Source of the DNA: a virus
Length of the DNA: 41,365 bases
Virus record (IMG/VR): IMGVR_UViG_3300036944_000897
Coordinates: 1 to 41,365 of that record
Reading direction: 5' to 3' (one strand)
How positions within the stretch are numbered: position 1 is the first letter of the stretch; the number at the start of each line of letters is the position of its first letter. Below, one piece after another: positions 76 to 41,365 of this stretch. The translations under genes were made by a program, and so were the position numbers. The notes under the pieces were generated by a model. It did no database searches and was not told where the DNA came from. It was given only the letters and a program-made list of their open reading frames with translations.

Positions 76-143
76 TGTACTTTTGAAAAGTTACAAGGTA
101 TAATGGTTCTATGAGGTAAAAGCCTCAAGCAAAAACGACGAAG
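76..143 (+). promoter_or_regulatory. Early promoter P1 with 5' hairpin and leader box
   Basis: TGTACT at 76-81, a 17-bp spacer, and TATAAT at 99-104 within AAGGTATAATGG. Transcription should start near 110-111. A 5'-terminal hairpin follows at once: TGAGGT (112-117), AAAA loop, GCCTCA (122-127). Then comes the box AAACGACGAAG (133-143) and the ribosome-binding AAGGGA before the ATG at 153. The spacer carries TTTTGAAAA rather than the TTTGCTTCA seen in most sister promoters. Nothing recognisable is seen in bases 1-75. Confidence 0.85.
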
Positions 144-1635: not shown

Positions 1636-1755
1636 CTCCGAGACGCTTTCTTCGTCGTTTCCGTCTCGGTGGCAGGATGTTTGCTTCGTCGTTTGCATCC
1701 TGCACGAGAGGGGGACTGTCGAGACTACTCCAGTCTCCCTCTCACAATTTAAACT
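1636..1755 (+). ncRNA. Candidate trans-acting RNA with two anti-leader hairpins
   Basis: Three hairpins lie back to back after the stop at 1629. Hairpin 1 pairs 1638-1645 with 1662-1669 (8 bp). Hairpin 2 pairs 1672-1679 with 1696-1703 (8 bp). The stems are unrelated, yet both loops are exactly 16 nt (1646-1661 and 1680-1695) and share CTTCGTCGTTT. That is the reverse complement of the box AAACGACGAAG in the P1 leader, and of the AAACGACGAA core in most early leaders on both strands. Hairpin 3 (1706-1743) is a terminator. The RNA would be made as the 3' part of the operon-1 transcript. No coding explanation fits: the frame across it lacks a ribosome site. Function is inferred from complementarity only. 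Confidence 0.6.
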
Positions 1756-1832: not shown

Positions 1833-3602
1833 ATGGGACATTTCAAGACAAGCGGTACACGAGCAGAGATGACTCAGCCATCATGGCTAAAGACTGGCGC
1901 ACAGATTGGTGAGCTCGTAAACGAGTGGGCACACAGAGGAGACCTAGTAGTCTACCTTGGTCCTGGCGCTGGTGGACCAGCACCTGCAGCTTACAACCCT
2001 GCGCTAAGCGAAATCGAAGTCAACACCGATGCGGCCTTTGGAAAAGGCGTTGAGGCTGAAGTAGTTGGCGACCTTCGCGACCGCGATAACCAATACGACT
2101 GGCCTCGTGCCTCAGGTGCAATCTTCCACGAAGCTTGCCACGCTCGCTATTCACGCTGGTCGATGGAAGCTGCACACGGCTCACTAAGCAGCTCAGAGTT
2201 CGAAGCGCTACAGCTTCTTGAAGAAGGACGCATCGAAGGATTCGGTGTGAAGGCAACTCCTAGCAACCGTGAGTTCCTCCGCTCTTGCGCACTTGAAATC
2301 GTTCTAGGTGACCTCACCGAAGAAGGACTAAGCAAGGTCTCAACGATTCACGCCGGCGCACGACTAGCAGGACTAACTCTTGCTCGTGTCGATGCTGGTG
2401 TACTTGAGATGGATGACCTAGGTTCAGTGCCTGAACTTCTTGAGGCTCTGCTAGGCAAAGACTTGCTCAAGACTCTACGCGGTCTCTGGAACGAGATGCA
2501 GATGCACGATGAGCACTACGACATCACTCCGATGTACGATGTTGCACGTCGCTGGATTGAAGCCATCCGTGGCGCGCAGACTGAGAAGGGCGAAGAGACT
2601 CAGGAGAGCGTCGAGCAGCAGATTCAGGAAATCCTTGAGGCTCTAGCCGACGCGGCAGGCATTGCAGAGATTGCGGCAGCAGGAGAACTAGCCGAGCAGC
2701 AGATTAGCGAGCAGTGGGTCAGGATTGCAAAAGGTCGCGGCGCAGATTCTGCCGAAGAGCAGTCACACAAGAACATTGCTGACAAGGTCTTCGTCGAAGG
2801 CGCGAAGGACGAAGTAGGCTCTCGCACTAGGTCGAGACTTCAGTCGAAGCGTCAGCCGACAGCTCAAGAGCGTGCGGCAGCCGTAAAGCTAGGGCAACTA
2901 TTCGACAAGGCTAAGTACCGCGAGCGCTCGCAGACAGAGATTCACTCTGTGACTCCTCCAGGACGTCTACGTACTCGTGCACTCGTTCAAGGTGCTGCAC
3001 TCAAGTCGAAGGGCTTGATGACTCAGACTGAGCCATGGCGTCGTACGCAGCGTAAGCACACCGACAACCCGCAGCTCAAGGTCGGCGTAATGGTTGACAT
3101 TTCAGGTTCTATGGGTGCGGCGATGGAACCAATGGCTGTGACAGCATGGGTTCTCTCTGAGGCAACCAAGCGCGTCCAAGGACGTGCGGCGATGGTCTAC
3201 TATGGTCAGGACGTCTTCCCAACTCTAAAGCCAGGTCAGAGTCTTCCTGAGGTTCAGGTTTACTCAGCACCAGATTCGACTGAGAAGTTCGACAAGGCAT
3301 TCAAGGCTCTAGACGGTGCGATGAACTTCTTGCACGGCGACGGCGCTCGCTTGCTCGTCATCGTAAGCGATGGCCACTACACAAGCGAAGAATGCAAGGC
3401 TGCGGCTCAGTGGATTGAGCGTTGCCACAAGTCAGGTACTGGAGTTCTTTGGTTGACCTATGACGACGTGACTGCGGCTCAACGCTGGGTCAAGAACAAT
3501 GGTGAGGTCGTCTACGTTAGCAAGGACTCAGTCGATGCGGCTCAGAAGATTGGAACGGCGGCAGTCAAGGTGTTGGCAAACGCCTCGGCTTCTCGCCGAT
3601 AA
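1833..3602 (+). CDS. CobT-like VWA protein with HExxH metallopeptidase-like region
   Basis: The start at 1833 is chosen because it follows promoter P2 and AGGAGG; the same frame is open upstream only through the RNA hairpins. The protein has 589 residues. The N-terminal part has HEACH (99-103), and LLEEGRIE (128-135) follows about 25 residues later. Together they resemble the HExxH...E zinc site seen in CobT-like and DUF2201-type proteins. An acidic, helical middle (about 245-375) follows. The C-terminal VWA domain (about 415-585) has the MIDAS motif DISGSMG (422-428). The upstream AAA+ gene completes a MoxR/VWA pair, usually a metal-insertion or remodelling machine. The substrate is unknown. 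Peptidase activity is inferred from the motif only. Confidence 0.88.
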   Translation: MGHFKTSGTRAEMTQPSWLKTGAQIGELVNEWAHRGDLVVYLGPGAGGPAPAAYNPALSEIEVNTDAAFGKGVEAEVVGDLRDRDNQYDWPRASGAIFHEACHARYSRWSMEAAHGSLSSSEFEALQLLEEGRIEGFGVKATPSNREFLRSCALEIVLGDLTEEGLSKVSTIHAGARLAGLTLARVDAGVLEMDDLGSVPELLEALLGKDLLKTLRGLWNEMQMHDEHYDITPMYDVARRWIEAIRGAQTEKGEETQESVEQQIQEILEALADAAGIAEIAAAGELAEQQISEQWVRIAKGRGADSAEEQSHKNIADKVFVEGAKDEVGSRTRSRLQSKRQPTAQERAAAVKLGQLFDKAKYRERSQTEIHSVTPPGRLRTRALVQGAALKSKGLMTQTEPWRRTQRKHTDNPQLKVGVMVDISGSMGAAMEPMAVTAWVLSEATKRVQGRAAMVYYGQDVFPTLKPGQSLPEVQVYSAPDSTEKFDKAFKALDGAMNFLHGDGARLLVIVSDGHYTSEECKAAAQWIERCHKSGTGVLWLTYDDVTAAQRWVKNNGEVVYVSKDSVDAAQKIGTAAVKVLANASASRR

Positions 3603-3625: not shown

Positions 3626-3685
3626 ATGAAGCAAACTTCATAAATACAAGGTATAATGGTTATAGATGGAAATCTAAACGACGAA
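3626..3685 (+). promoter_or_regulatory. Early promoter P3 with 5' hairpin and leader box
   Basis: TATAAT at 3652-3657 in AAGGTATAATGG. No TGTAC is present at the -35 position. Instead an inverted repeat ATGAAG-CAAA-CTTCAT (3626-3641) covers it; its left part is the reverse complement of the TTTGCTTCA box in sister promoters. The leader has hairpin TAGAT-GGAA-ATCTA (3663-3676), whose last base begins the box AAACGACGAA (3676-3685). Confidence 0.75.
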
Positions 3686-3695
3686 AGGAATCACT

Positions 3696-4253: not shown

Positions 4254-4313
4254 TGTACATCTGCTTCAATACAAGGTATAATGGAACCAAGAAGTAAATG
4301 ACAAAACGACGGA
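4254..4313 (+). promoter_or_regulatory. Early promoter P4 and leader box
   Basis: TGTACA at 4254-4259, a 17-bp spacer with CTGCTTCAA, and TATAAT at 4277-4282. There is no clear 5' hairpin. The box reads AAACGACGGA (4304-4313) and runs directly into GGAGGA before the ATG at 4321, so box and ribosome-binding site overlap here. Confidence 0.85.
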
Positions 4314-4320
4314 GGACAGC

Positions 4321-5630: not shown

Positions 5631-5690
5631 TGTACTTTCTGAAGCAAAGCATGGTATAATGGTATTACGGCGAAAGCCTCAAACGACAAA
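5631..5690 (+). promoter_or_regulatory. Early promoter P5 with leader box
   Basis: TGTACT at 5631-5636, an 18-bp spacer with the box inverted (TGAAGCAAA), and TATAAT at 5655-5660. The leader has a minimal GGC-GAAA-GCC hairpin (5669-5678) and a variant box AAACGACAAA (5681-5690), then GAAGGAG before the ATG at 5705. Confidence 0.82.
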
Positions 5691-5704
5691 ATGAAGGAGT
5701 CAAC

Positions 5705-6273: not shown

Positions 6274-6330
6274 TGTACATCTGAAGCATTACAAGGTATA
6301 ATGGTATTACTAGGAAAATCTAGTAACGAC
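6274..6330 (+). promoter_or_regulatory. Early promoter P6 with 7-bp 5' hairpin and leader box
   Basis: TGTACA at 6274-6279, a 17-bp spacer with inverted box TGAAGCA, and TATAAT at 6297-6302. Hairpin TTACTAG (6307-6313) / CTAGTAA (6320-6326) has a GAAAAT loop. It is directly followed by AACGACGAA, so the first As of the box lie in the stem. Confidence 0.84.
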
Positions 6331-6344
6331 GAAATGAGGAACTT

Positions 6345-7930: not shown

Positions 7931-7994
7931 TGTACGTTTGCTTCAAATACAAGGTATAATAGTCTTATCAGGAAAACCTGATGCAAACGACAAA
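7931..7994 (+). promoter_or_regulatory. Early promoter P7 with perfect 5' hairpin and leader box
   Basis: TGTACG at 7931-7936, an 18-bp spacer with TTTGCTTCAA, and TATAAT at 7955-7960. Hairpin ATCAGG-AAAA-CCTGAT (7967-7982) is perfect. A variant box AAACGACAAA (7985-7994) and AAGGAG lead to the ATG at 8006. Confidence 0.85.
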
Positions 7995-8005
7995 AGGAGA
8001 TTCAC

Positions 8006-8847: not shown

Positions 8848-8907
8848 TGTACTTTTTGCTTCAATACAAGGTATAATGATTATGTGGTAAAAACCACAAA
8901 CGACGAA
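8848..8907 (+). promoter_or_regulatory. Early promoter P8 with perfect 5' hairpin and leader box
   Basis: TGTACT at 8848-8853, an 18-bp spacer with TTTGCTTCAA, and TATAAT at 8872-8877. Hairpin TGTGGT-AAAA-ACCACA (8883-8898) overlaps the first A of the box AAACGACGAA (8898-8907). AAAGGA precedes the ATG at 8918. Confidence 0.86.
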
Positions 8908-8917
8908 AGGACACATT

Positions 8918-14165: not shown

Positions 14166-14175
14166 TTGAATCTCC

Positions 14176-14236
14176 TTCGTCGTTTATCAAGTTATCTTGA
14201 TAGTTCTATTATACCTTGTAAACTGAAGCAAATACA
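14176..14236 (-). promoter_or_regulatory. Leftward early promoter M1 with hairpin and leader box
   Basis: On the minus strand: TGTATT (14236-14231), a 17-bp spacer containing TTTGCTTCA, and TATAAT (14213-14208). Then hairpin ATCAAG-ATAA-CTTGAT (14201-14186), directly followed by AAACGACGAA (14185-14176) and GGAG. It is the same architecture as the rightward units. Confidence 0.85.
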
Positions 14237-14680: not shown

Positions 14681-14696
14681 AGTTGTCTCTTTTCAT

Positions 14697-14760
14697 TTCG
14701 TCGTTTATCAAGCATTTGCTTGATAAGACCACTCTACCACAAAACTGAAGCGTTTTTTAC
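14697..14760 (-). promoter_or_regulatory. Leftward early promoter M2 with 9-bp hairpin and leader box
   Basis: Minus strand: weak -10 TAGAGT (14736-14731) preceded by CGCTTCAG in the spacer. A perfect 9-bp hairpin TTATCAAGC-AAAT-GCTTGATAA (14726-14705) has the longest stem of the set. It overlaps the first two As of the box AAACGACGAA (14706-14697). The -35 is poorly matched. Confidence 0.7.
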
Positions 14761-15139: not shown

Positions 15140-15152
15140 TGTGTCTCTTTCT

Positions 15153-15216
15153 TTCGTCGTTTGTCAAGTGTTTACTTGATGTAATCATTATACTACAAAC
15201 TGAAGCAAAAACTTAC
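15153..15216 (-). promoter_or_regulatory. Leftward early promoter M3 with hairpin and leader box
   Basis: Minus strand: TGTAAG, a spacer of about 19 bp with TTTGCTTCA, and TATAAT (15192-15187). Hairpin TCAAGT-AAAC-ACTTGA (15179-15164) is followed by box AAACGACGAA (15162-15153). Confidence 0.8.
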
Positions 15217-19078: not shown

Positions 19079-20098
19079 ATGTCAGATACTCCAATCAGCG
19101 CCGGCGGCGAGCTTGTTCCTGAGGAACAAGACCTTGCCCGCGCACTCATTCAGATAGCCGACAAGTACGGCAAGTTCAATGAGGACCAGACTGGTATCTG
19201 GGCAGACTACCACGAGCCTGAGGACAACCCTTACGCTGAGATGGGTGTCAAGTGTGGCAACTGTGTTCTCTACCGCGGCGGCGAAGAGTGCGCCGTTGTT
19301 GCTTTCAAAGTTGACCCAGAAGGTTACTGCCGCTTTGCTGTTTTGCCTGATGGTTCTGTCGACCCTAGCAAGGCACCAGAAGGTGAAAAGCCTTACGAGA
19401 ACCACGAGTACTACGAAGAAGATGGCGACGAGCTAAAGTTCGTGCTAGCAACTGCAGGCGCTAAGAAAGCTCCTAAGAAGGACCGAATCTACGGTTCAAA
19501 GAAGAACAGCAAGGGTTCTGCATCAGGAAGCCGTAAGATCGTCTTCTCAAAGAAGGTCGAAGACTCTCTAAAGGAAAAGGTCAAGAACCACAACGAGAAG
19601 GTAACAGCAGCAGGCAAGAAGGCAACTTTGTCTGCTCTAAAGGCTGCTTACCGCCGTGGCGCTGGTGCTTTCTCATCTAGCCACCGACCAGACCAGAACA
19701 GAAACTCTTGGGCAATGGCACGTGTCAATGCTTACCTACACTTGCTAAAGACTGGTTCACCTAAGAACAAGAACTACGTGCAGGACAACGACTTGCTGCC
19801 ATCTGGACACCCAAAGTCGTCTCGCGGCACCACAGCAGCTTCGTTCTATGAAGACCTAAACAAATACCTAACTATCGAGCTTCGAGACGAAATGGACTAC
19901 GAAGACCCAGAGCACGCGTTGCTAGCGTTTGCTGAGTTCTCAGGACAGGGATACGAAATCATCCCAGCACTAAGGTCAGCTTGGCTACGCGGAACCCAGA
20001 ATGACGAGTCTGCTTTCGAGCGGGCAAAAGAACTTGCCATCAATCTTTATGAAAGCCGTGACGCAGACCTTCTGCCACGACAGGGAAAGGCTAACTAG
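19079..20098 (+). CDS. Structural-block protein with Cys4 site
   Basis: A 339-residue protein. ATG at 19079 follows AGAGG; the open frame extends upstream only inside the Dps gene. Residues about 58-85 hold four Cys (CGNCVLYRGGEEC, later GYCRF), probably a metal site. After a Lys/Ser-rich linker comes YRRGAGAFSSSHRPDQNRNSWAMARVNAYLHLLKTG, a segment I associate with actinophage head-region proteins but cannot name. The C-terminus is helical. It overlaps the giant gene by one base, so the two are translationally coupled. Confidence 0.75.
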   Translation: MSDTPISAGGELVPEEQDLARALIQIADKYGKFNEDQTGIWADYHEPEDNPYAEMGVKCGNCVLYRGGEECAVVAFKVDPEGYCRFAVLPDGSVDPSKAPEGEKPYENHEYYEEDGDELKFVLATAGAKKAPKKDRIYGSKKNSKGSASGSRKIVFSKKVEDSLKEKVKNHNEKVTAAGKKATLSALKAAYRRGAGAFSSSHRPDQNRNSWAMARVNAYLHLLKTGSPKNKNYVQDNDLLPSGHPKSSRGTTAASFYEDLNKYLTIELRDEMDYEDPEHALLAFAEFSGQGYEIIPALRSAWLRGTQNDESAFERAKELAINLYESRDADLLPRQGKAN

Positions 20099-23000
20099 TG
20101 AGTAGCGATTACGAAAACCTAAACGTACCGGAGATAGACGGCACTCCGAGCATTAGAGTTCGCATTGCCGAGCTAGTGTTCATTGCGAATGCTCGTGTTC
20201 TTCCTGCTCGCCGCGTGCCACTGACTGCCGCATTGACAGTAGCGGATCGAGTGCTTACTCGCTCTTCTTTCAGTGATGCAACTGCTAGGTTGTTCGCAGT
20301 CGAACGTGCCGTTACTCGCTTTATCTCACTAGCAACTCTAGGCGCTCGCACTGGAGAGTCTGTCGAGCACCTAGACCTTCTTCCAGTTGCACACCCGCTT
20401 TCAGAGGCACTATCTCCACTAACTGCATCTGCTATCGCAGAAGCCCGTGCTGAATGGCTTGCAGCTGACCCTAGAATTGCCGACGAGCTTCGCTCACTAG
20501 TTGCATCGGCATACACACTCGAATTTGGTTCAGTCGAGCACACACATGCTCTGGCGCGTCTAGAAGCTGCAGGTGCAGAACTTCCACTCGACCTTGCTGC
20601 ACTAGTAGCTGTAGGCGGAAACTCATCGGCTGCCCGTAGTGCTCGTGCACGTCGTCAGCTTCGTGACCGTCTAAAGCGCTTCGCCTTTGAAGGTGGTACT
20701 GGTGGATTCCTACTCCGCTTAGGTTCAAAGGTCAAGTCAGAGGTCGGAACGCTTCTAGGCGGCTCGTCGACAACAGGCATCGCTGAAGTTTACATCACTC
20801 AGGACAACGAAGAGTTCGGTCTCAAAAAGGGAGACATTCTTCCTGTAAGCCTAGACAACTACGAGGCTCTAGACGTTGCTCTTACAGAAGAGCAGCTCAA
20901 GAAAGCTGGAATCGAGCTTCCAGGCAGTGAAGTCAGTTCAAGTAAGCGTGCACAGGACGTCAACGAACTTCTTGCTAACAAGCTAGAAGCTCCAAGCGAC
21001 TGGAAGAAGCTTCCAAATGGTGACTTCGTAACCGAGGACGGCTTTGTCGCCACTCCTAAGGGAGACCTAAAGTACGAGCTAAAGGATGAGAACGGAAACT
21101 CTGTTCCAGGTCTAGAAGCAGCAGAGTGGCCAGAGATTCAGCAGCACATCAAGCAGGTTGCCGAAGCCGAATTCGGTAGTGCTGCCGACCAGGAAGCAGA
21201 TGCTGAAGCAGCTACTTACAAGAAGAAGGACCTAAAGGTCGAGCAGCTTGCCATTGGTGACCAGCTTCCTCAGTACTACCCAATCAAGGGTGCAGAAGCC
21301 AACCTTCTAAAGAAGCGCGAAGAAGACCCTAACTACGAGCTTCCTCCTACAGACGAGATTATTGGTGTCTACAAGGCATCAAACCCAAGTAAGCGTGGAA
21401 TCAAGGTACGCGACCTTGCAACCGGCAAAGAACGCTACTTCGAGGTCAACAAGACTGCACGAATCTACGACGTTCGCCAGAAGCAAGTAGACAAGCCAGC
21501 AGAGCCTAAGCCTAAGTTCGACCCTACAAGCGTAAACAAGTACGACGGCAGCGGCATGTTGAAGCCTGAACCTACTGGCTACTTGCTCGGTCCTGATGAG
21601 ACTATGGTCGACAAGACAGGTCCTGAAATCAAGGTTGGCGACGTCGTTGTTACTAAAGATGGCAAGGTTCGTAAAGTCGCCAAGAAGTTCTCAATGGACT
21701 CAGGCGACCAAATCACATTTGATGACAACAGCTCACTTACACTTAGTGAGCCTGACACTCTAAAGGTTGTTGCCAAGAAGGGTGATACCGCTCCTATCAC
21801 CGACCTCTACCCTGTCGGTTCAACAGCTCAGCAGGTCTATCGACCTAGCGCTCCTGGACTTTCCCCTCGTGCAACACGCTGGACCAAGACCGAAGACGGT
21901 AAGTGGACCAACGACGAAACAGGTGCAAAGTCAGACACACTGCCTGAAGACCCTAAGGGATTCCAACCTATCGGTGGCGGATACCTTGACAAGGTAGTAG
22001 TAATTACTCCTGCAGAAGCCAAGAAGGGCAAGTCGCATGAGGCAGTAGGCCTAGGTAAGATTACGTTAGACAAGCCGCTAGACCTTGAAGAAAAGTTCAA
22101 GGAATTCCGTGACAAACTTAAAGGCATGTCTGACAAAGAAGTCATGGATGCGCTTGCCGAGTACAACGACAAGGTCATGAACGACATCAAAGAGGGTAAC
22201 GCGATCTTGCCTCCTGGTTCGTCCGAGATCGAAAAGGAAGCTGCACGCCGTGGCCTAGTAGTTGAGGCACCTGCAAAGAAGGCAGCACTCAAGAACCCAC
22301 CTAGCATGAAGCAGAAGGAAATGATTCGCTCCATGCTAAAGGAACGAGTTATGACTGCCGAGCAGCGCCAGCAGTACATGGACCGCTTCGCTAAGACTGA
22401 CAAGTTTGGCATCAATGAGCTATTCAATGAACTAAAGGCCTTCCCTAAGGCTAAGGTTCCTCTGACTGATGGTAGCGACCCGCTAAACCAGCACGAAAAC
22501 CCTGAGCTAGCAAAAATCAAGCAGAAGCTTGCACCATTCGACCTAGACGGTTCTATCCGCCGCTACATCGACGAAAAAACTGCAAACGGTGGAGAAGTTA
22601 GCGCTAAAGAAATTCGCGACCTGCTAAAGGACAACAAGGACTTTGACCCTACCAAATCTTACGTAGACTACGCTAATGAAGCACAGTCCCTAAACATAAG
22701 TCTAGGCGTCTACAGTACGGAATCTGAGAAGAAGGCTGCTGAAGAATCTTCAACTAAGTCCAAGGCGGCCAAGGAAGCTCTTGAGGCTAAGCTAGATGCT
22801 CTAAAGACCGAGCAAGCAGACTTGGCTCCACTATCTAAAGAAGAGCACCAGTCTAAGCTCAATGAGCTTGCTGGTCTAATCTCAGATAAGAATGACCCTA
22901 ACGGCGACGTGCGCAACGGAATCTTGAACGGAACTCTACGCACGGGTGCCGAAATTGTTGACGCTCTCCGTAAGCAGGAAATCAAGAACGAGTACAAGAC

Positions 23001-26000
23001 AACGTCACCAACTAGTTTCGCTAGTGGTTACAAGTACATCTCAGCAGATGAGTCAAAGAACCCAGAAGAATGGGAACTCATCAATGCAGCGTACAGGCTT
23101 TCACCTCCACCTGTAGATTTCGCTCCTCAGTTCGTAGCAAATAGCCTGCGTAACTATGACAATAAGAACGGTGACCTATCTAAGCTCATCAACTCCGGTG
23201 CATCAGCTAATGAGATTTTTGCCTGGCTAGATGAAAACTCGCCTGCGTGGAAAGAGCGCCAGAACGACTACAACACTCGCATGTATGTCGACCTACCTTG
23301 GCCATCTCAGAAGGCAAGCTGGAAGAAGTTTGGTGAGCTACTCCAGACAATCTACGACCTTGACAAAGATGAGTCTCCTGCAGACGACCAGCCAAACATC
23401 GAGTTCGTCTCAGCGCTAAGCGAAAAGCTACCTGAAAATACCATTAGCTCACTTGACGAAGAACTTCCTAAGGCCTTTAGTGGAGACTCACTAAGCGAAC
23501 TACTAGGCAAGGTCAACGATGAGGAAGACCTACAGCGTGTTGTAGACGAGATTTCTATTGCTCGTGCTTCAGAAGCGGTTACACCTCAGCAAGAAGCTCT
23601 ACTTGAAAAGGTTCAGGACGCAGCAATACAGAAGTTCTATGAGGACAACCCAGACCTTGAGAACACTATGGCAGAACCAGCCAACATCGTTGTCCCGGCA
23701 GTTCAGCCTGAACCGTCAATTGAACCTGATGACGAAGCACCTTCACTAACTGTCTCAGAGCTTTACGAGTCACTAGACGACCTTGCAGACTTAGAGGGTG
23801 GATACCCAATCTCACTGTATGAGCAGGTTGACGAAATCCAGGAAGGCGCTGACAACATCGAAGTACTACGCGAAGATGTTGCTGACCTTCTAGAAGCCGG
23901 AGACAAGGAAGGCGCTGCTAAGAAATACGCTGAACTTGCAGATGCTTACGACTACTTTGCAGACCAGGTTGAGCTTGCTCGTGAGCTTGGTGCCGACGCA
24001 TTTGATGACCCTGACTTCAAGAAGAAGGACCAGGACAAGGTCATTGCTGATTACAAGAAGGCGGCTAGCATAGCGCGTGAACTTTCTGCAGCAGCAAAGA
24101 CAGACCAGACAGCACCGTCAACGCCAGGTACATCTGACGAGAACTACGCTGCAGTGCTATCTGATGGAGCAGACATCAAGTCAGGCGAGCTAGTCCACTT
24201 TACAACTCCAGAAAACGCAAAGGCTATTCTTGAAAATGGATTCAATCCAGAAGGCAAGGACACACTAGGCGGCAGCCAATGGGGAATCCCAGGCGCTATG
24301 TTTGCAGCCGAGTATGGCTATGACATGAGCGAGTACATGGCTAGCGAGTACTGGGCACAGAACCCAGACCAGCAAGAAATCGGAAAGCTCAAGGTTGAAC
24401 TTCCAGCAGACACGAGAGTTCTCAAAGCTACATGGACAAACAACAAGAAAGAGCTTGAGACACAGGCCGGCCTAGACAAGATTGGTGCCGCAGGCGCTTT
24501 CGACTTCATTCAGAACAAGCGTGAAGAAGAGAAGGCAAGTGGCAAGGGCCTAACAGAGCCAGTAGAGCACCTAATTGCTCAGTGGGCATCTCAATCCGGT
24601 GAGTTTGACGCAGTTGATTTTGGTGGCGAGGTCATCATCTTCAATAAGAACCAGCAGGACGTTGCTCCTAAAGAAACTTTTGAAGTGCTTGCTGAAAACA
24701 AACCAGAACAGCCGCAAGCACAAAGCATCAAAGATGTCGAGTTTGGTGCAACCCAAGTTTACGAAATCGGTGACACCGTGTATGCGGACTACGACCCGAA
24801 AGACACTGGAATCGGGTTTATTCGCACAGGTAAAGTAATCGACCGTAACTTGGCAACAGGTGACTACCTAGTTCAGGTAGACGACACCGATGCAAACGGA
24901 AAAAGCGCAGGCAAAAAGATAGCCTTCAACAAGAAAGACATGGCTCCGCTTGCTGCTAAATCAGAACCAACGCCTGAAGAACCTACTCCAGCCGAAGAGC
25001 CGGCAGAAACAGTAGAGAACCCGTTCAGTACTGATAACAGTGATAAAGCTCTTACTGAGTCCGGTTTTGACCGTGAAGCAGTTGACAACTTCGATGCAAA
25101 GATAGCAGTCATTCTAGATAAAGAAGACACTGGCTACGAACCTATGCTCAAAGGCATAACTGGCAATGAGAACATAGTCAAGAACATTCTAGACGACCTA
25201 GACGCCTCCGATGGTACAAACAACATTGCACTATCAAGTTCACTTTACGAACTGAAAGAAGCACTAGCAAGTCAAGGTGCAGCTCCTCAGATTACTGAAT
25301 ACATCGGTAAGCTAGCTGACACTCTAGACGCTTTTGTTCCTGCTGACAACGGCAACAAAAACAATCTAACCGCAGTTGATGCAATCAAGGAAGAACAGGC
25401 CGGAAACCTAGACCTCTCTAAGTGGAAGAAGGTAGGCGGCCAGAAGGGTTCTAACCCAGGCGGAACCTACGAGAACCCAGAAACTGGTGAGCAGGTTTAT
25501 GTCAAGACTCCTAAGTCTAAGCTACACGGTGAGAATGAGCGTCTAGCCTCTGCACTGTACGATGCAGCTGGAATCTCATCTGCAAAGGTGTTCGCTGGCA
25601 AGGACGCTAATGGCAACGATGTCACCTACTCACCGATGATTGATGGTGCAACTCAAGACCTCAAGAAGCAGCTCAAGAACAAAGAGTACATGGCTCGACT
25701 ACAGCAAGGCTTTGCTATTGATGCATTGCTTGGCAACTGGGATGTAATCGGTCTAGACTTCGACAACGTGGTAACTGACAAGAACGGTGAGCCTGTTCGT
25801 GTAGACCCAGGTGGTGCGCTACTATTCCGTGCACAAGGTGCTCCAAAGGGAGACGCCTTTGGCGAGGACGTTCCAGAGCTAGACGCATTCACTGATAAGA
25901 GTAGTTCACGCCCATCTGCAAAGGTCTTCAGCCAGATGACTGATGAGCAGAAGCTAGAGAGTGCAAAGGTTCTACAGAACCTGTCTCCTTCTCAGATAGA

Positions 26001-29000
26001 TGAGCTAGTCAACTCGATTATCTCTGACCCTGAAAAGCGTGAGGAACTCAAGACTAAGCTAAAGGCGCGTCGAGAGTTTATCCTCAACAAGTTCGAGCTG
26101 AGTGACAAGCCAGCAAAGCAGAAGAATCCTGCAGCAGGTTCATCTGGCAAGACCGTAAAGCTTGATGTCAATGGCGACAATGAAAGCCTGAAGGCACAGC
26201 TAGAAGAAGCGGCTAAGAACGGCGACCTAGTCTCGTTCAAGTACAACGATAAAGAACGAATCGTTGCTCCGACATACGTCTGGACTAACCCTAAGAATGG
26301 CAACATCAACCTAACTGGAGAAGAAGATGGAGTTAGCAAGAACTACACTCTCCAAAACTTCGAGCCTTCTTCACTAGCCCCTGCCGTAGAAGAGCCTACT
26401 CCAGCCGAAGCCACTACTGTAAACCTAGGAGATGACGCTACCAGAACTGAAGCAGCAAAGTCTATCCAGTCACAGCTACCAGATGGCTACACAGCTACAC
26501 CTGAAAAGGGTGTAGGTACCACTGGATTTGTCATGGTCAAGAACTCACAAGGTGAAACAGTTGCCATGGTGACCAATGACCCAGACGACCCAAACAAGCT
26601 TGCAGTCCAGAATTTCAAGGCTGGTTGGAAGATCGAGTCAGTCTCGACACTAGATGAGGCAACCGCCAAGCTAGTCAACGCTACTAAGGTAGTTGAAGAA
26701 CCTGGACAGGTAGTTCAGCTATCAGATGGCTCGACTGGAAAGAAGGGCAGCAAGGTCGTCCACAGCAAGAACGGAATCACTGGAACCATCGTTGGTTTCC
26801 AGAAGGACCCGAACTATGTGAAGGTAAAGCCAGACAACGGCGACCCTATCAAGATTATGTCTATCAACCAGATTAAGTCTAACGGCTCTGGCGGAGAAGG
26901 CGTAACACCTCCTACAACTCCTAATGCTCCTGAAGCGCCTGAAGCACCTAGCACTCCTGAAGCTCCTGAAGCAGAAACTTTTGTTCCTCAGAAATCTGAG
27001 AACATGACACTGTTTGCAGGTTCAGACGGCATGCCTAGCAAGGTCATAGTCATCAAGACCTACGAAGGAAAGTGGGATGTGGTCTACGACTACAACGGTC
27101 CGAACTTCAAGCCGCTGCACACAGACCTGAACTCTCGTGAAGACGCAGAAGCAAAGGCTCTAGAGTCTATAAAAGCCGCTCCTCTAGAAGTAAAGCCTGC
27201 AGAGCCAGCGTCTAGCGGTCCTAAGAAGTTCACATTCGACTTCATGAGTTTGTCCGATGTCACCGATGCTCCTGAGATAAAGGTTAGCGATGACGACCTT
27301 GACCCAGACAACGAGAAGATTAAGACCGACGCAAATGGAACGCTAATCAAGCCTGGAGCAATCGTCAAGGATGAAAATGGCCGAGTTGGCGTGTACCGCA
27401 CACCTGGATACGGCGACCCGAAAAAGATTCGTATGATTTGGGAAGATGGTACTCAGGACTCAGTCATGCCTGACACTGTGACTGCAACAGGTAAATACAT
27501 AGAGCCTGGTATCGCAGGTGTGTACGCTGGTCTAGCGGACCTAGATTTTGAAAAGAAATCTGAACCTCTACCTGCAGACTACGTTGCCAACGGACTAGCC
27601 GATAAGAACGGCAATAACCTAGGCTACATGCAGATGGTCGTCGACAAGAACGGCGACATGGGTGTGGTTATTGAGCACAAGAGTTACAACGGTTATGTCA
27701 AGGTCGCATTCCCAGACGGAATGAAGACACGTAAAGCCGACACCCTTGTTGGACTTGACAGTCGTTACACAAAGGGTGAGTACAACCTCAAGATTGCACA
27801 AAAGCACTACAAGGCAATATCTGGCGGGTACAGCAGTGACAAGTACAACCTGCCTACATTTGGAAAGACAGTCGCTAGTACCGGGTCAAAGGTACCTTCA
27901 GGTAAGCTAAGTGTTCCAAAGAACGGTGCAGGAGCTAAGGTTGAAGGAGTCAAGAACCTAAACTGGAACGAGTCTGACTTTGAAGGAGCTCCTTCACTAG
28001 AAGAGCTTCTCACCATGGTTTCAGATACCAGCAAGCCTGGCTCTGGTCTTCGTGGTGGTTCTATTGCTCTAAACTCTGGTTCAGTTGAAGACCTAGACTT
28101 GAGAATCATGGCAGCATCTGGCACTAATGGAGAAGATGCGTACCTACTCAAGTACAAGTTGACTAGCTGGGCAGGAGATGAGCTTGCGAACACACTAGTT
28201 GAAATGGTCAAGAATAACGACCCTAGAGTTACTGTCGTTAGTGGACTATTTGTTCCAGAAAACGCTATCGATGGTGACAAGGTCTCGTTCACCCCTGGTG
28301 CCTACAGTGATAAAGCTAAGTTCAAGAGCGGTTATGGACAGACCTTCGTAATAACTCAAGAAGACGGCACAAAGATTTACTTTATGCGAGCAGACGTGCC
28401 TACTCAGCACAAGTCAGGTGCAGCAAAGATGAACTCTGACGCTCCTAGAGCTTATCACAACAAAATCATGATTATTGCACCTAAGGACAAGGCTACGCCT
28501 GATGCACTAGCAGCAGCTCTTCAGACTGCTGGAGTCCAGGACGTGAGACCAAGCACCCAGGCAGACGCAAAGATTCTTATTGAAAACCGCCTAATGAGCA
28601 TTTTTGATGAGAAGGTAGACCCTAAGGTCAACCCATCTGGTAAGGAGCGCGAGGAAAGCCTACAGCGTATCAAAGACAAGTGGGGAATCGGCCCTGAGAA
28701 TGTGACTATCACGACTGGTGCCGGCGGTCGTATTGAAATGCGTCTAGACCCTGAAAGCGCAAAGAAGATTGCTCAAAAAACCAAGATTAAGGTTCTACGC
28801 CATAACCTAACTGGTGGAAGCCACATGAAGGGCAGCAGCTCTACTGAGACCAAAGAGGAACAAGTCGAGCGAATTGCAAACTACTTTGTTAGTCGAGTAG
28901 CAAGTCCACAAGGTGGCCTGCTGTCTACGACTACCAGATGGAGTGAAGGTGTTCCTACTGGAGGAATGTCCAGCCAGGCTGACATCAAGACTGGTGGTGC

Positions 29001-29373
29001 AGACTATGTATTCACCACACCGGTCCACGGCGTGATTAGCAAAAACGATTCATTGGTCCCGTTGATTTACTTCAATGCCGAGCGCGCATTCCAGCGTCTA
29101 GACTTCTGGGCTAACCAGAGTGACCAGTTTGGAAAGCGTACAGGTAAGAGCCCGATTGACCAAGCTGTACCAGGCGGTTATGAGGTAATGTTCAAGGGAC
29201 GTCTAAGCTTCGATGACGCCGAGGTTTTGATGGTAAATGACCAGACTATGAGAACGCTAGTCATAACCAAGCTCCGCCAAAAAGGCATCAATGAACTTGG
29301 AGGCCGACCACTAGAGGCAGTAATTATGACTGGTGAAGACTACCAGGCACTTATCAACCCTATGACAAACTAG
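20098..29373 (+). CDS. Giant multidomain protein with ART-like, kinase-like, WYL-like and SH3-like parts
   Basis: A 3091-residue protein from a GTG overlapping the previous TAG by one base. Residues 1-210 are helical. SH3/KOW-like barrels recur (GDVVVTKDGKVRKV, GDTVYADYDP, GSKVVHSKNGITGTIVGF, GAIVKDENGRVGVY). A KQKEMIRSMLKER module is near 740. Residues 1362-1515 begin LVHFTTPENAKAILENGF, like the first strand-helix of ADP-ribosyltransferases. Residues 1775-1950 look like a HipA/PI3K-type kinase: K1803 in YVKTPK, NWDVIG (1880-1885), D1888-N1889 and VDPGG (1902-1906). About 2028-2090 is WYL-like (DLVSFKYNDKERIV). The last 180 residues contain GGADYVFT. Pro/Glu linkers join the parts. It probably enters the virion or host; no function is proven. 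Confidence 0.8.
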   Translation: MSSDYENLNVPEIDGTPSIRVRIAELVFIANARVLPARRVPLTAALTVADRVLTRSSFSDATARLFAVERAVTRFISLATLGARTGESVEHLDLLPVAHPLSEALSPLTASAIAEARAEWLAADPRIADELRSLVASAYTLEFGSVEHTHALARLEAAGAELPLDLAALVAVGGNSSAARSARARRQLRDRLKRFAFEGGTGGFLLRLGSKVKSEVGTLLGGSSTTGIAEVYITQDNEEFGLKKGDILPVSLDNYEALDVALTEEQLKKAGIELPGSEVSSSKRAQDVNELLANKLEAPSDWKKLPNGDFVTEDGFVATPKGDLKYELKDENGNSVPGLEAAEWPEIQQHIKQVAEAEFGSAADQEADAEAATYKKKDLKVEQLAIGDQLPQYYPIKGAEANLLKKREEDPNYELPPTDEIIGVYKASNPSKRGIKVRDLATGKERYFEVNKTARIYDVRQKQVDKPAEPKPKFDPTSVNKYDGSGMLKPEPTGYLLGPDETMVDKTGPEIKVGDVVVTKDGKVRKVAKKFSMDSGDQITFDDNSSLTLSEPDTLKVVAKKGDTAPITDLYPVGSTAQQVYRPSAPGLSPRATRWTKTEDGKWTNDETGAKSDTLPEDPKGFQPIGGGYLDKVVVITPAEAKKGKSHEAVGLGKITLDKPLDLEEKFKEFRDKLKGMSDKEVMDALAEYNDKVMNDIKEGNAILPPGSSEIEKEAARRGLVVEAPAKKAALKNPPSMKQKEMIRSMLKERVMTAEQRQQYMDRFAKTDKFGINELFNELKAFPKAKVPLTDGSDPLNQHENPELAKIKQKLAPFDLDGSIRRYIDEKTANGGEVSAKEIRDLLKDNKDFDPTKSYVDYANEAQSLNISLGVYSTESEKKAAEESSTKSKAAKEALEAKLDALKTEQADLAPLSKEEHQSKLNELAGLISDKNDPNGDVRNGILNGTLRTGAEIVDALRKQEIKNEYKTTSPTSFASGYKYISADESKNPEEWELINAAYRLSPPPVDFAPQFVANSLRNYDNKNGDLSKLINSGASANEIFAWLDENSPAWKERQNDYNTRMYVDLPWPSQKASWKKFGELLQTIYDLDKDESPADDQPNIEFVSALSEKLPENTISSLDEELPKAFSGDSLSELLGKVNDEEDLQRVVDEISIARASEAVTPQQEALLEKVQDAAIQKFYEDNPDLENTMAEPANIVVPAVQPEPSIEPDDEAPSLTVSELYESLDDLADLEGGYPISLYEQVDEIQEGADNIEVLREDVADLLEAGDKEGAAKKYAELADAYDYFADQVELARELGADAFDDPDFKKKDQDKVIADYKKAASIARELSAAAKTDQTAPSTPGTSDENYAAVLSDGADIKSGELVHFTTPENAKAILENGFNPEGKDTLGGSQWGIPGAMFAAEYGYDMSEYMASEYWAQNPDQQEIGKLKVELPADTRVLKATWTNNKKELETQAGLDKIGAAGAFDFIQNKREEEKASGKGLTEPVEHLIAQWASQSGEFDAVDFGGEVIIFNKNQQDVAPKETFEVLAENKPEQPQAQSIKDVEFGATQVYEIGDTVYADYDPKDTGIGFIRTGKVIDRNLATGDYLVQVDDTDANGKSAGKKIAFNKKDMAPLAAKSEPTPEEPTPAEEPAETVENPFSTDNSDKALTESGFDREAVDNFDAKIAVILDKEDTGYEPMLKGITGNENIVKNILDDLDASDGTNNIALSSSLYELKEALASQGAAPQITEYIGKLADTLDAFVPADNGNKNNLTAVDAIKEEQAGNLDLSKWKKVGGQKGSNPGGTYENPETGEQVYVKTPKSKLHGENERLASALYDAAGISSAKVFAGKDANGNDVTYSPMIDGATQDLKKQLKNKEYMARLQQGFAIDALLGNWDVIGLDFDNVVTDKNGEPVRVDPGGALLFRAQGAPKGDAFGEDVPELDAFTDKSSSRPSAKVFSQMTDEQKLESAKVLQNLSPSQIDELVNSIISDPEKREELKTKLKARREFILNKFELSDKPAKQKNPAAGSSGKTVKLDVNGDNESLKAQLEEAAKNGDLVSFKYNDKERIVAPTYVWTNPKNGNINLTGEEDGVSKNYTLQNFEPSSLAPAVEEPTPAEATTVNLGDDATRTEAAKSIQSQLPDGYTATPEKGVGTTGFVMVKNSQGETVAMVTNDPDDPNKLAVQNFKAGWKIESVSTLDEATAKLVNATKVVEEPGQVVQLSDGSTGKKGSKVVHSKNGITGTIVGFQKDPNYVKVKPDNGDPIKIMSINQIKSNGSGGEGVTPPTTPNAPEAPEAPSTPEAPEAETFVPQKSENMTLFAGSDGMPSKVIVIKTYEGKWDVVYDYNGPNFKPLHTDLNSREDAEAKALESIKAAPLEVKPAEPASSGPKKFTFDFMSLSDVTDAPEIKVSDDDLDPDNEKIKTDANGTLIKPGAIVKDENGRVGVYRTPGYGDPKKIRMIWEDGTQDSVMPDTVTATGKYIEPGIAGVYAGLADLDFEKKSEPLPADYVANGLADKNGNNLGYMQMVVDKNGDMGVVIEHKSYNGYVKVAFPDGMKTRKADTLVGLDSRYTKGEYNLKIAQKHYKAISGGYSSDKYNLPTFGKTVASTGSKVPSGKLSVPKNGAGAKVEGVKNLNWNESDFEGAPSLEELLTMVSDTSKPGSGLRGGSIALNSGSVEDLDLRIMAASGTNGEDAYLLKYKLTSWAGDELANTLVEMVKNNDPRVTVVSGLFVPENAIDGDKVSFTPGAYSDKAKFKSGYGQTFVITQEDGTKIYFMRADVPTQHKSGAAKMNSDAPRAYHNKIMIIAPKDKATPDALAAALQTAGVQDVRPSTQADAKILIENRLMSIFDEKVDPKVNPSGKEREESLQRIKDKWGIGPENVTITTGAGGRIEMRLDPESAKKIAQKTKIKVLRHNLTGGSHMKGSSSTETKEEQVERIANYFVSRVASPQGGLLSTTTRWSEGVPTGGMSSQADIKTGGADYVFTTPVHGVISKNDSLVPLIYFNAERAFQRLDFWANQSDQFGKRTGKSPIDQAVPGGYEVMFKGRLSFDDAEVLMVNDQTMRTLVITKLRQKGINELGGRPLEAVIMTGEDYQALINPMTN

Positions 29374-41326: not shown

Positions 41327-41365
41327 TGGCAAGTGTAACCATCTACAAAGGCGAACTTCGCAGAT
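41326..41365 (+). CDS. Start of a further structural gene (cut by the window end)
   Basis: ATG at 41326 overlaps the preceding stop as TAATG. Thirteen codons are visible (MASVTIYKGELRR) before the window ends. Its position suggests another head-tail or tail protein; nothing more can be said. Confidence 0.5.
   Translation, partial: MASVTIYKGELRR

Follow-up and report, generated by a model that had tools for sequence, protein, structure and literature searches.

Tandem 3′-UTR hairpins whose loops complement their own operon's leader: a putative RNA feedback element in phages

Hairpins and leader box in the window

What do two adjacent hairpins do when they stand behind an early phage gene on unrelated stems and both expose the complement of a box that precedes many early genes? 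These hairpins lie in the virus record IMGVR_UViG_3300036944_000897, the whole of which (41,365 bases, 50% G+C, with portal, terminase and tail genes) is referred to here as the window. The hosts of this virus family are probably freshwater actinobacteria. At the left end of the window, a single promoter (-10 box TATAAT at about 100-105) precedes the operon's first gene, which encodes a 155-aa protein of no recognised family (153-620, + strand), and the gene for a MoxR-type AAA ATPase (646-1629, +; AAA_5, 3e-19; phrog_16448). The ATPase stop codon is followed by the two loop-sharing hairpins, a third hairpin, and then the promoter of a CobT-like (vWA) gene (1833-3602, +), which has a weak match to VWA_CoxE and is 48-58% identical to the CobT-like genes of relatives. 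Elsewhere in the window there is a 3,091-aa open reading frame (20098-29373, +); the structural region of phage DSL-LC01, introduced below, likewise contains a long hypothetical gene (9.9 kb, 52800-62669).

Both hairpins are situated in the 3′ UTR of the ATPase gene. Hairpin 1 (1638-1669, +) has an 8-bp stem, CCGAGACG (1638-1645) and CGTCTCGG (1662-1669), which encloses the 16-nt loop CTTTCTTCGTCGTTTC (1646-1661). Hairpin 2 (1672-1703, +) has an unrelated 8-bp stem, GCAGGATG (1672-1679) and CATCCTGC (1696-1703), and a loop of equal length, TTTGCTTCGTCGTTTG (1680-1695). Common to the two loops is CTTCGTCGTTT, with the anti-box word at 1650-1660 in hairpin 1 and at 1684-1694 in hairpin 2. Folding of this region gave z = -7.5, and none of 200 shuffles was equally stable. 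When the whole window was subjected to 60 dinucleotide shuffles, the anti-box 10-mer occurred in none of 14,569 hairpin loops. Immediately downstream, a strong third hairpin (1706-1743, +) is followed by an AT-rich tract with T6 and is the likely site of termination. No Rfam family reached the gathering score in the window, the covariance model of c4 RNA (RF01695) included; a tRNA search of the window found none, and there were no nucleotide matches to named phages.

The loop word is the reverse complement of the box AAACGACGAAG at 133-143 (+), within the operon's own 5′ leader, where the exact complementarity to both loops extends over 11 nt. A further copy in the ATPase leader, CAAACGACGAAA (624-635, +), is an 11-nt complement of loop 2, TTCGTCGTTTG; the copy at 625 has one mismatch relative to AAACGACGAAG. 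The box, AAACGACGAA(A/G), is found in about ten early-gene leaders just 5′ of the start codons, and many of these leaders share an architecture of TATAAT, short 5′ hairpin, box, ribosome site and ATG. With up to two mismatches allowed, the window contains 27 box matches against 14.3 ± 3.3 expected. The CobT leader has a partial box (AAACGAC, 1812-1818, +). Possible trans targets are an exact 11-mer (AAACGACGAAG) at 14175-14185 (-), boxes with one mismatch at 3676-3686, 4304-4314 (AAACGACGGAG) and 8898-8908 (all +) and at 14696-14706 and 15152-15162 (both -), and weaker matches at 5681-5691 and 7985-7995 (variants) and at 6324-6334 (AACGACGAA core), all on the + strand.

These results agree in most respects with an earlier sequence-only reading of the locus. 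Its coordinates and letters for two 8-bp hairpins with unrelated stems and a common word in equal 16-nt loops were right, and the matches that it had listed, to 133-143 and of the core to other leaders, were found again. Its statement that a terminator follows is supported by the strong third hairpin, but a simple terminator scan did not flag this structure, in which the T run begins about 11 nt past the stem.

To rank hairpins by leader complementarity, we took all hairpins with stems of at least 7 bp and counted, for each, the windows upstream of gene starts in which a loop 9-mer has its exact complement. This screen, like the others used here, requires perfect stems and misses imperfect ones. 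Hairpins 1 and 2 came out on top, with complements of one exposed loop in 8 leaders of the window, compared with 2 for the next hairpin. The same tandem hairpins ranked first in the close relatives G001 (17 leaders), G002 (18) and G003 (8). For the best leaders of the window, the predicted energies of duplexes with the loops were about -18 to -20 kcal/mol; the median was -10. The operon's own leader is not the unique best partner, as the box at 14175-14185 (-) equals it and several other leaders nearly do. In the window, the predicted pairing adjoins the edge of the ribosome site.

Most boxed leaders of the window open with a short hairpin directly 3′ of the promoter, for example at 113-128, 3664-3675, 6310-6326, 7967-7982 and 8882-8899 (+) and at about 14200-14185 (-). 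The stems of these hairpins differ in sequence while pairing is kept (ATCAGG-AAAA-CCTGAT, GTGGT-AAAA-ACCAC), and they may serve to protect the 5′ end or to insulate the box.

Joint change of loop and leader in related phages

The structure, its complementarity to leaders and its conservation can be followed through related phages, and across them loop and leader change together. This was the outcome of a preset check, and it supported the earlier claim that the loops are selected for RNA pairing with the box. The tandem element is kept in L001-L003, whose ATPases are 94% identical to that of the window. Beyond these, the pair of MoxR-type ATPase and CobT-like genes occurs in dozens of divergent phages with strong 3′-UTR hairpins complementary to their own leaders. 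We also searched viral and bacterial contigs for the pattern TTCGTCGTTT occurring twice; outside close relatives this returned mostly repeats and no comparable element was recognised. Since such elements were recognised in close relatives only, the word as such is not a motif of general occurrence.

A leader-pattern scan yielded at least 118 stretches and a CobT query 31 loci. At almost all CobT loci, a strong hairpin whose loop complements the cobT leader stands right behind the cobT stop codon, whereas the 3′ UTR of the window's CobT-like gene is without such a hairpin. The complementarity in relatives extends over 9-15 nt and shifts together with the leader: TATCCTTCCGTCA with TGACGGAAGGATA in L348, CCTTCCGTCAA with TTGACGGAAGG in L354, GTCCTTTCGTC with GACGAAAGGAC in L356/L364, and CTTGTCCTTTC with GAAAGGACAAG in L365-L367; the word in L350/L351 is ATCCTTCCGTCA. 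More distant phages, with CobT 44-46% identical, agree with this pattern (L006, 15 nt, TTCGTCCTTTCGTTG with CAACGAAAGGACGAA; L028, 12 nt). In L014, L018, L023, L025 and L031, tandem 3′ hairpins match the leader word GAAAGGGAA(A/G)GCAA over shorter stretches that are individually non-significant. At 19 CobT loci, the observed sum of matches was reached in none of 20,000 shuffles of leaders among phages (kinship ignored), even though the automatic stem finder mis-called the loops of L368 and L370 and thereby lowered their score. At 44 CobT loci, the mean match to the own leader was 8.3, compared with 6.1 for other leaders (permutation p about 5e-5, kinship ignored). The own leader was the unique best among the contig's promoter-proximal leaders in 9 of the 19 loci and co-best in several more. 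In eight hairpins with the loop word CCTTCCGTCA, 10 of 13 stem pairs show compensatory changes on both sides, yet the word itself is invariant, indicating that RNA structure is kept. The predicted duplex at CobT loci covers the Shine-Dalgarno core (AAAGGA, GAAGGA).

A corresponding pattern is seen between the ATPase and cobT genes of relatives, where the loop of the intergenic hairpin complements a word of the ATPase leader just upstream of the shared box. Loop and leader read TTGGGTGGT with ACCACCCAA in L347, TTGGGTGT with ACACCCAA in L350, GTAGGTTG with CAACCTAC in L334 and L367, TGTAGGTG with CACCTACA in L355, and TGGCTGGT with ACCAGCCA in L362. One of the loop words TTGGGTG, GTAGGTTG, TGTAGGTG or TGGCTGGT is present in the intergenic hairpin of L346, L347, L350, L351, L334, L355, L362 and L367. 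Over 20 ATPase loci, the permutation p for joint change was about 5e-5 (kinship ignored). The window does not contribute to this statistic, because the stem finder took its third hairpin; its own 11-nt loop-leader match was measured separately. As the relatives' hairpins at this position follow the ATPase leader, the window's hairpins lie at a conserved site for loops directed to the own leader. The target word differs, being the shared box in the window and the word upstream of it at the relatives' ATPase loci, where direct occlusion is less obvious because the paired word is located 5′ of the ribosome site.

One of the relatives is Actinomycetia phage DSL-LC01, a 129-kb metagenome-assembled genome with a predicted Actinomycetia host (PMC10611076). 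It gave no megablast match to the first 12 kb of the window; its ATPase is 74% identical in the matched part and its CobT-like protein 48% identical. DSL-LC01 contains 15 exact ACGACGAAAGGA boxes, all on a single strand. Its hairpin at 41343 presents the same loop as the window, TTTCTTCGTCGTTT, on a different stem and matches the shared box. Directly 3′ of cobT stands a second hairpin with the loop TAGTTTACTTGTCCTTTACGTC; its segment GTTTACTTGTCCT is complementary over 13 nt to the leader of cobT itself, which gave the best match of those tested. Among 34 DSL-LC01 genes that are followed by a 3′ hairpin ahead of the next promoter, cobT clearly matched its own leader, the ATPase gene did so weakly, and the others did not. 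In the same intergenic region as the anti-box hairpin and 3′ of it, GAAACGACG (about 41404-41412, +) could pair with the anti-box loop inside one RNA.

Specificity was assessed with an antisense screen of 115 records, which found 20 distinct hairpins, compared with none for reversed loops and 2 for complement-only loops. Opposite-strand "sense" loops were dropped as a control because they are the identical hairpins seen from the other side. Chance probably accounts for two of the 20 hairpins (L309 3404, L362 627). The shared box is also matched by hairpins in L358, L363 (tandem), L365 and L327, so one phage may have several elements. L358 (5136) and L365 (15593), both on the + strand, share a conserved hairpin with the loop word CCCCTTTCGTC behind a gene encoding a product with the C-terminus ...RLVTV; this word complements, in L365, GACGAAAGG in the leader of that same gene, the third gene with such an element. 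The tandem hairpins of L363 (11471 and 11509, +), with loops ACTTTCGTCGC and CCTCCTTTCGTC, resemble the window's pair, but each complements a different part of the box. The own-leader match was absent in lineages L007, L008, L010, L017, L024 and L026, and in Microbacterium phages Pumpernickel, A3Wally and Cece and Gordonia phage GodonK.

Proposed feedback through the own leader and competing readings

The joint evolution of loop and target suggests an RNA feedback switch. On this comparative evidence we consider it probable, though far from certain, that the window's hairpins are the 3′-UTR half of an autorepressing RNA feedback element with a possible reach in trans. Once the ATPase operon mRNA is complete, the stem-presented loops would pair over 10-11 nt with the boxes at 133-143 and 624-635, either in cis or between mRNA molecules. 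Such pairing would probably stop ribosome loading and create a double-stranded target for RNase, so that the operon would repress itself as full-length mRNA accumulates. The 3′ end, intact or processed to a small RNA, could also reach the early regulon in trans, as the same box is present in about ten early leaders. We infer pairing in cells, repression and an extension to other leaders; regulon-wide action is possible where many leaders share the box, as in the window, G002 and DSL-LC01.

A released 3′ end might instead act chiefly as a small RNA that represses or times all boxed early genes, the match to the own leader being incidental. Complements of 8-12 nt in about ten leaders of the window and about 20 of G002, the 13-20 leaders concerned in DSL-LC01, and the additional anti-box loops behind other genes would all suit such an RNA. 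We nevertheless regard it as unlikely, because the loop tracks the own leader where own and shared leaders differ, and because the property is also found in phages in which no shared box is enriched (for example the 15-nt match in G006/L006). In addition, no sigma-70-like promoter was found between the ATPase start and 1760, albeit by a consensus scan that is insensitive and misses promoters visible by eye. The earlier reading had proposed an RNA that pairs with leaders across the early regulon. The comparisons support its RNA-pairing part and, to a lesser extent, the emphasis on a regulon small RNA, given that the own leader is tracked first and no separate promoter was found. What it had added as a closing remark, pairing with the 5′ leader of the same transcript, was confirmed as complementarity by the 11 nt at 133-143, here together with the ATPase leader. 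As the loop is tuned first to its own leader, an autogenous 5′-3′ UTR element describes the locus better than a free-standing small RNA.

The pairing might also activate or stabilise, for example by forming a 5′-3′ mRNA loop that shields the message from nucleases. This would fit the window, where the duplex stops at the edge of the ribosome site, and the relatives' ATPase loci, where it lies upstream of that site; we rate it as rather improbable, since the duplex at CobT loci covers the Shine-Dalgarno core, and such cover blocks translation in icaR (see below). Asymmetric gene-start boxes in Cluster K mycobacteriophages may bind RNA or protein (PMC3203893), and by analogy the box could be a DNA operator or RNA motif for a protein, with the hairpins as extra binding sites. 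This is very improbable here: the hairpins hold the antisense orientation within loops of variable stems, the register of the match moves between lineages with the own leader, and the compensatory stem changes indicate that RNA structure is kept. Least credible of all is the reading as ordinary terminators whose loops are similar by chance. The hairpins do stand at transcript ends, where terminators are expected, but their loop sequence is not unconstrained as in an ordinary intrinsic terminator: loops co-vary with leaders over many phages, and the other 3′ hairpins of DSL-LC01 lack the property. Chance and plain-terminator readings were rejected by the shuffles, the leader ranking and the genome-wide comparison in DSL-LC01.

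Relation to known systems and significance

The closest known case is Staphylococcus aureus icaR, in whose mRNA a UCCCCUG motif of the 3′ UTR base-pairs with the Shine-Dalgarno region; the authors allow for action in cis or in trans (PMC3868564). In both systems, the 3′ UTR carries a complement of its own mRNA's 5′ leader. However, icaR is a single host gene with a 7-nt motif, whereas here 9-15 nt are presented in stem loops, in phages, at two neighbouring genes, with lineage-wise re-tuning and a box shared by a regulon. The Vibrio cholerae sRNAs OppZ and CarZ derive from 3′ UTRs, base-pair with their own transcripts and inhibit translation (PMC7398697). The present element resembles them in its sequence complementarity to the translation start region of its own operon; OppZ and CarZ belong to host genes in a different host group, and involve RNase E processing and, for OppZ, Hfq. 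In phages P1 and P7, the c4 antisense RNA (RF01695) binds around the ant ribosome site through complementary words that are probably in loops (PMC12197685). Like the window's hairpins, it is a phage RNA with complementary words for a ribosome-binding region, but it is an immunity RNA with one target, and not an early-gene 3′ UTR with its own leader and many possible targets. By their descriptions, none of these systems is from this phage group, and none combines loop re-tuning over many lineages with a shared regulon box.

A literature search of partial coverage found no description of this element, in line with the earlier statement that no described phage system is known to have this layout. 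The layout is nevertheless not wholly unprecedented, because loop-presented antisense words near ribosome sites are known in phages from c4 RNA. Cluster K phages carry the start-associated SAS box, a conserved asymmetric sequence at many non-structural gene starts that is longer than a Shine-Dalgarno sequence and may be bound by RNA or protein (PMC3203893). That box, GGGATAGGAGCCC, differs from AAACGACGAA(A/G), so the element is not a Cluster K SAS, and no coding-strand hairpin presenting an anti-SAS word was found in bases 1-50,000 of TM4.

If the preferred feedback reading is right, these phages carry an RNA feedback device for which the evolutionary case for pairing is unusually strong, coming from dozens of phages in which loop and target shift jointly on variable stems. 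Little is known of antisense control and of phage RNA regulators in the presumed actinobacterial hosts. The element also offers a concrete hypothesis for conserved phage gene-start boxes, for which the question of an RNA or protein binder was raised in 2011 (SAS, PMC3203893), and its many natural loop-target pairs are already matched. Regulon-wide trans action, if true, would be the more novel outcome. We consider it a speculative idea, with odds clearly against it, that a diffusible 3′-UTR antisense RNA directed against a box in tens of leaders times the early programme as a phage address system. If so, box and loop would be re-tuned in each lineage, co-infecting relatives that share a code could shut off one another's early genes, and phages with another code would be insensitive.
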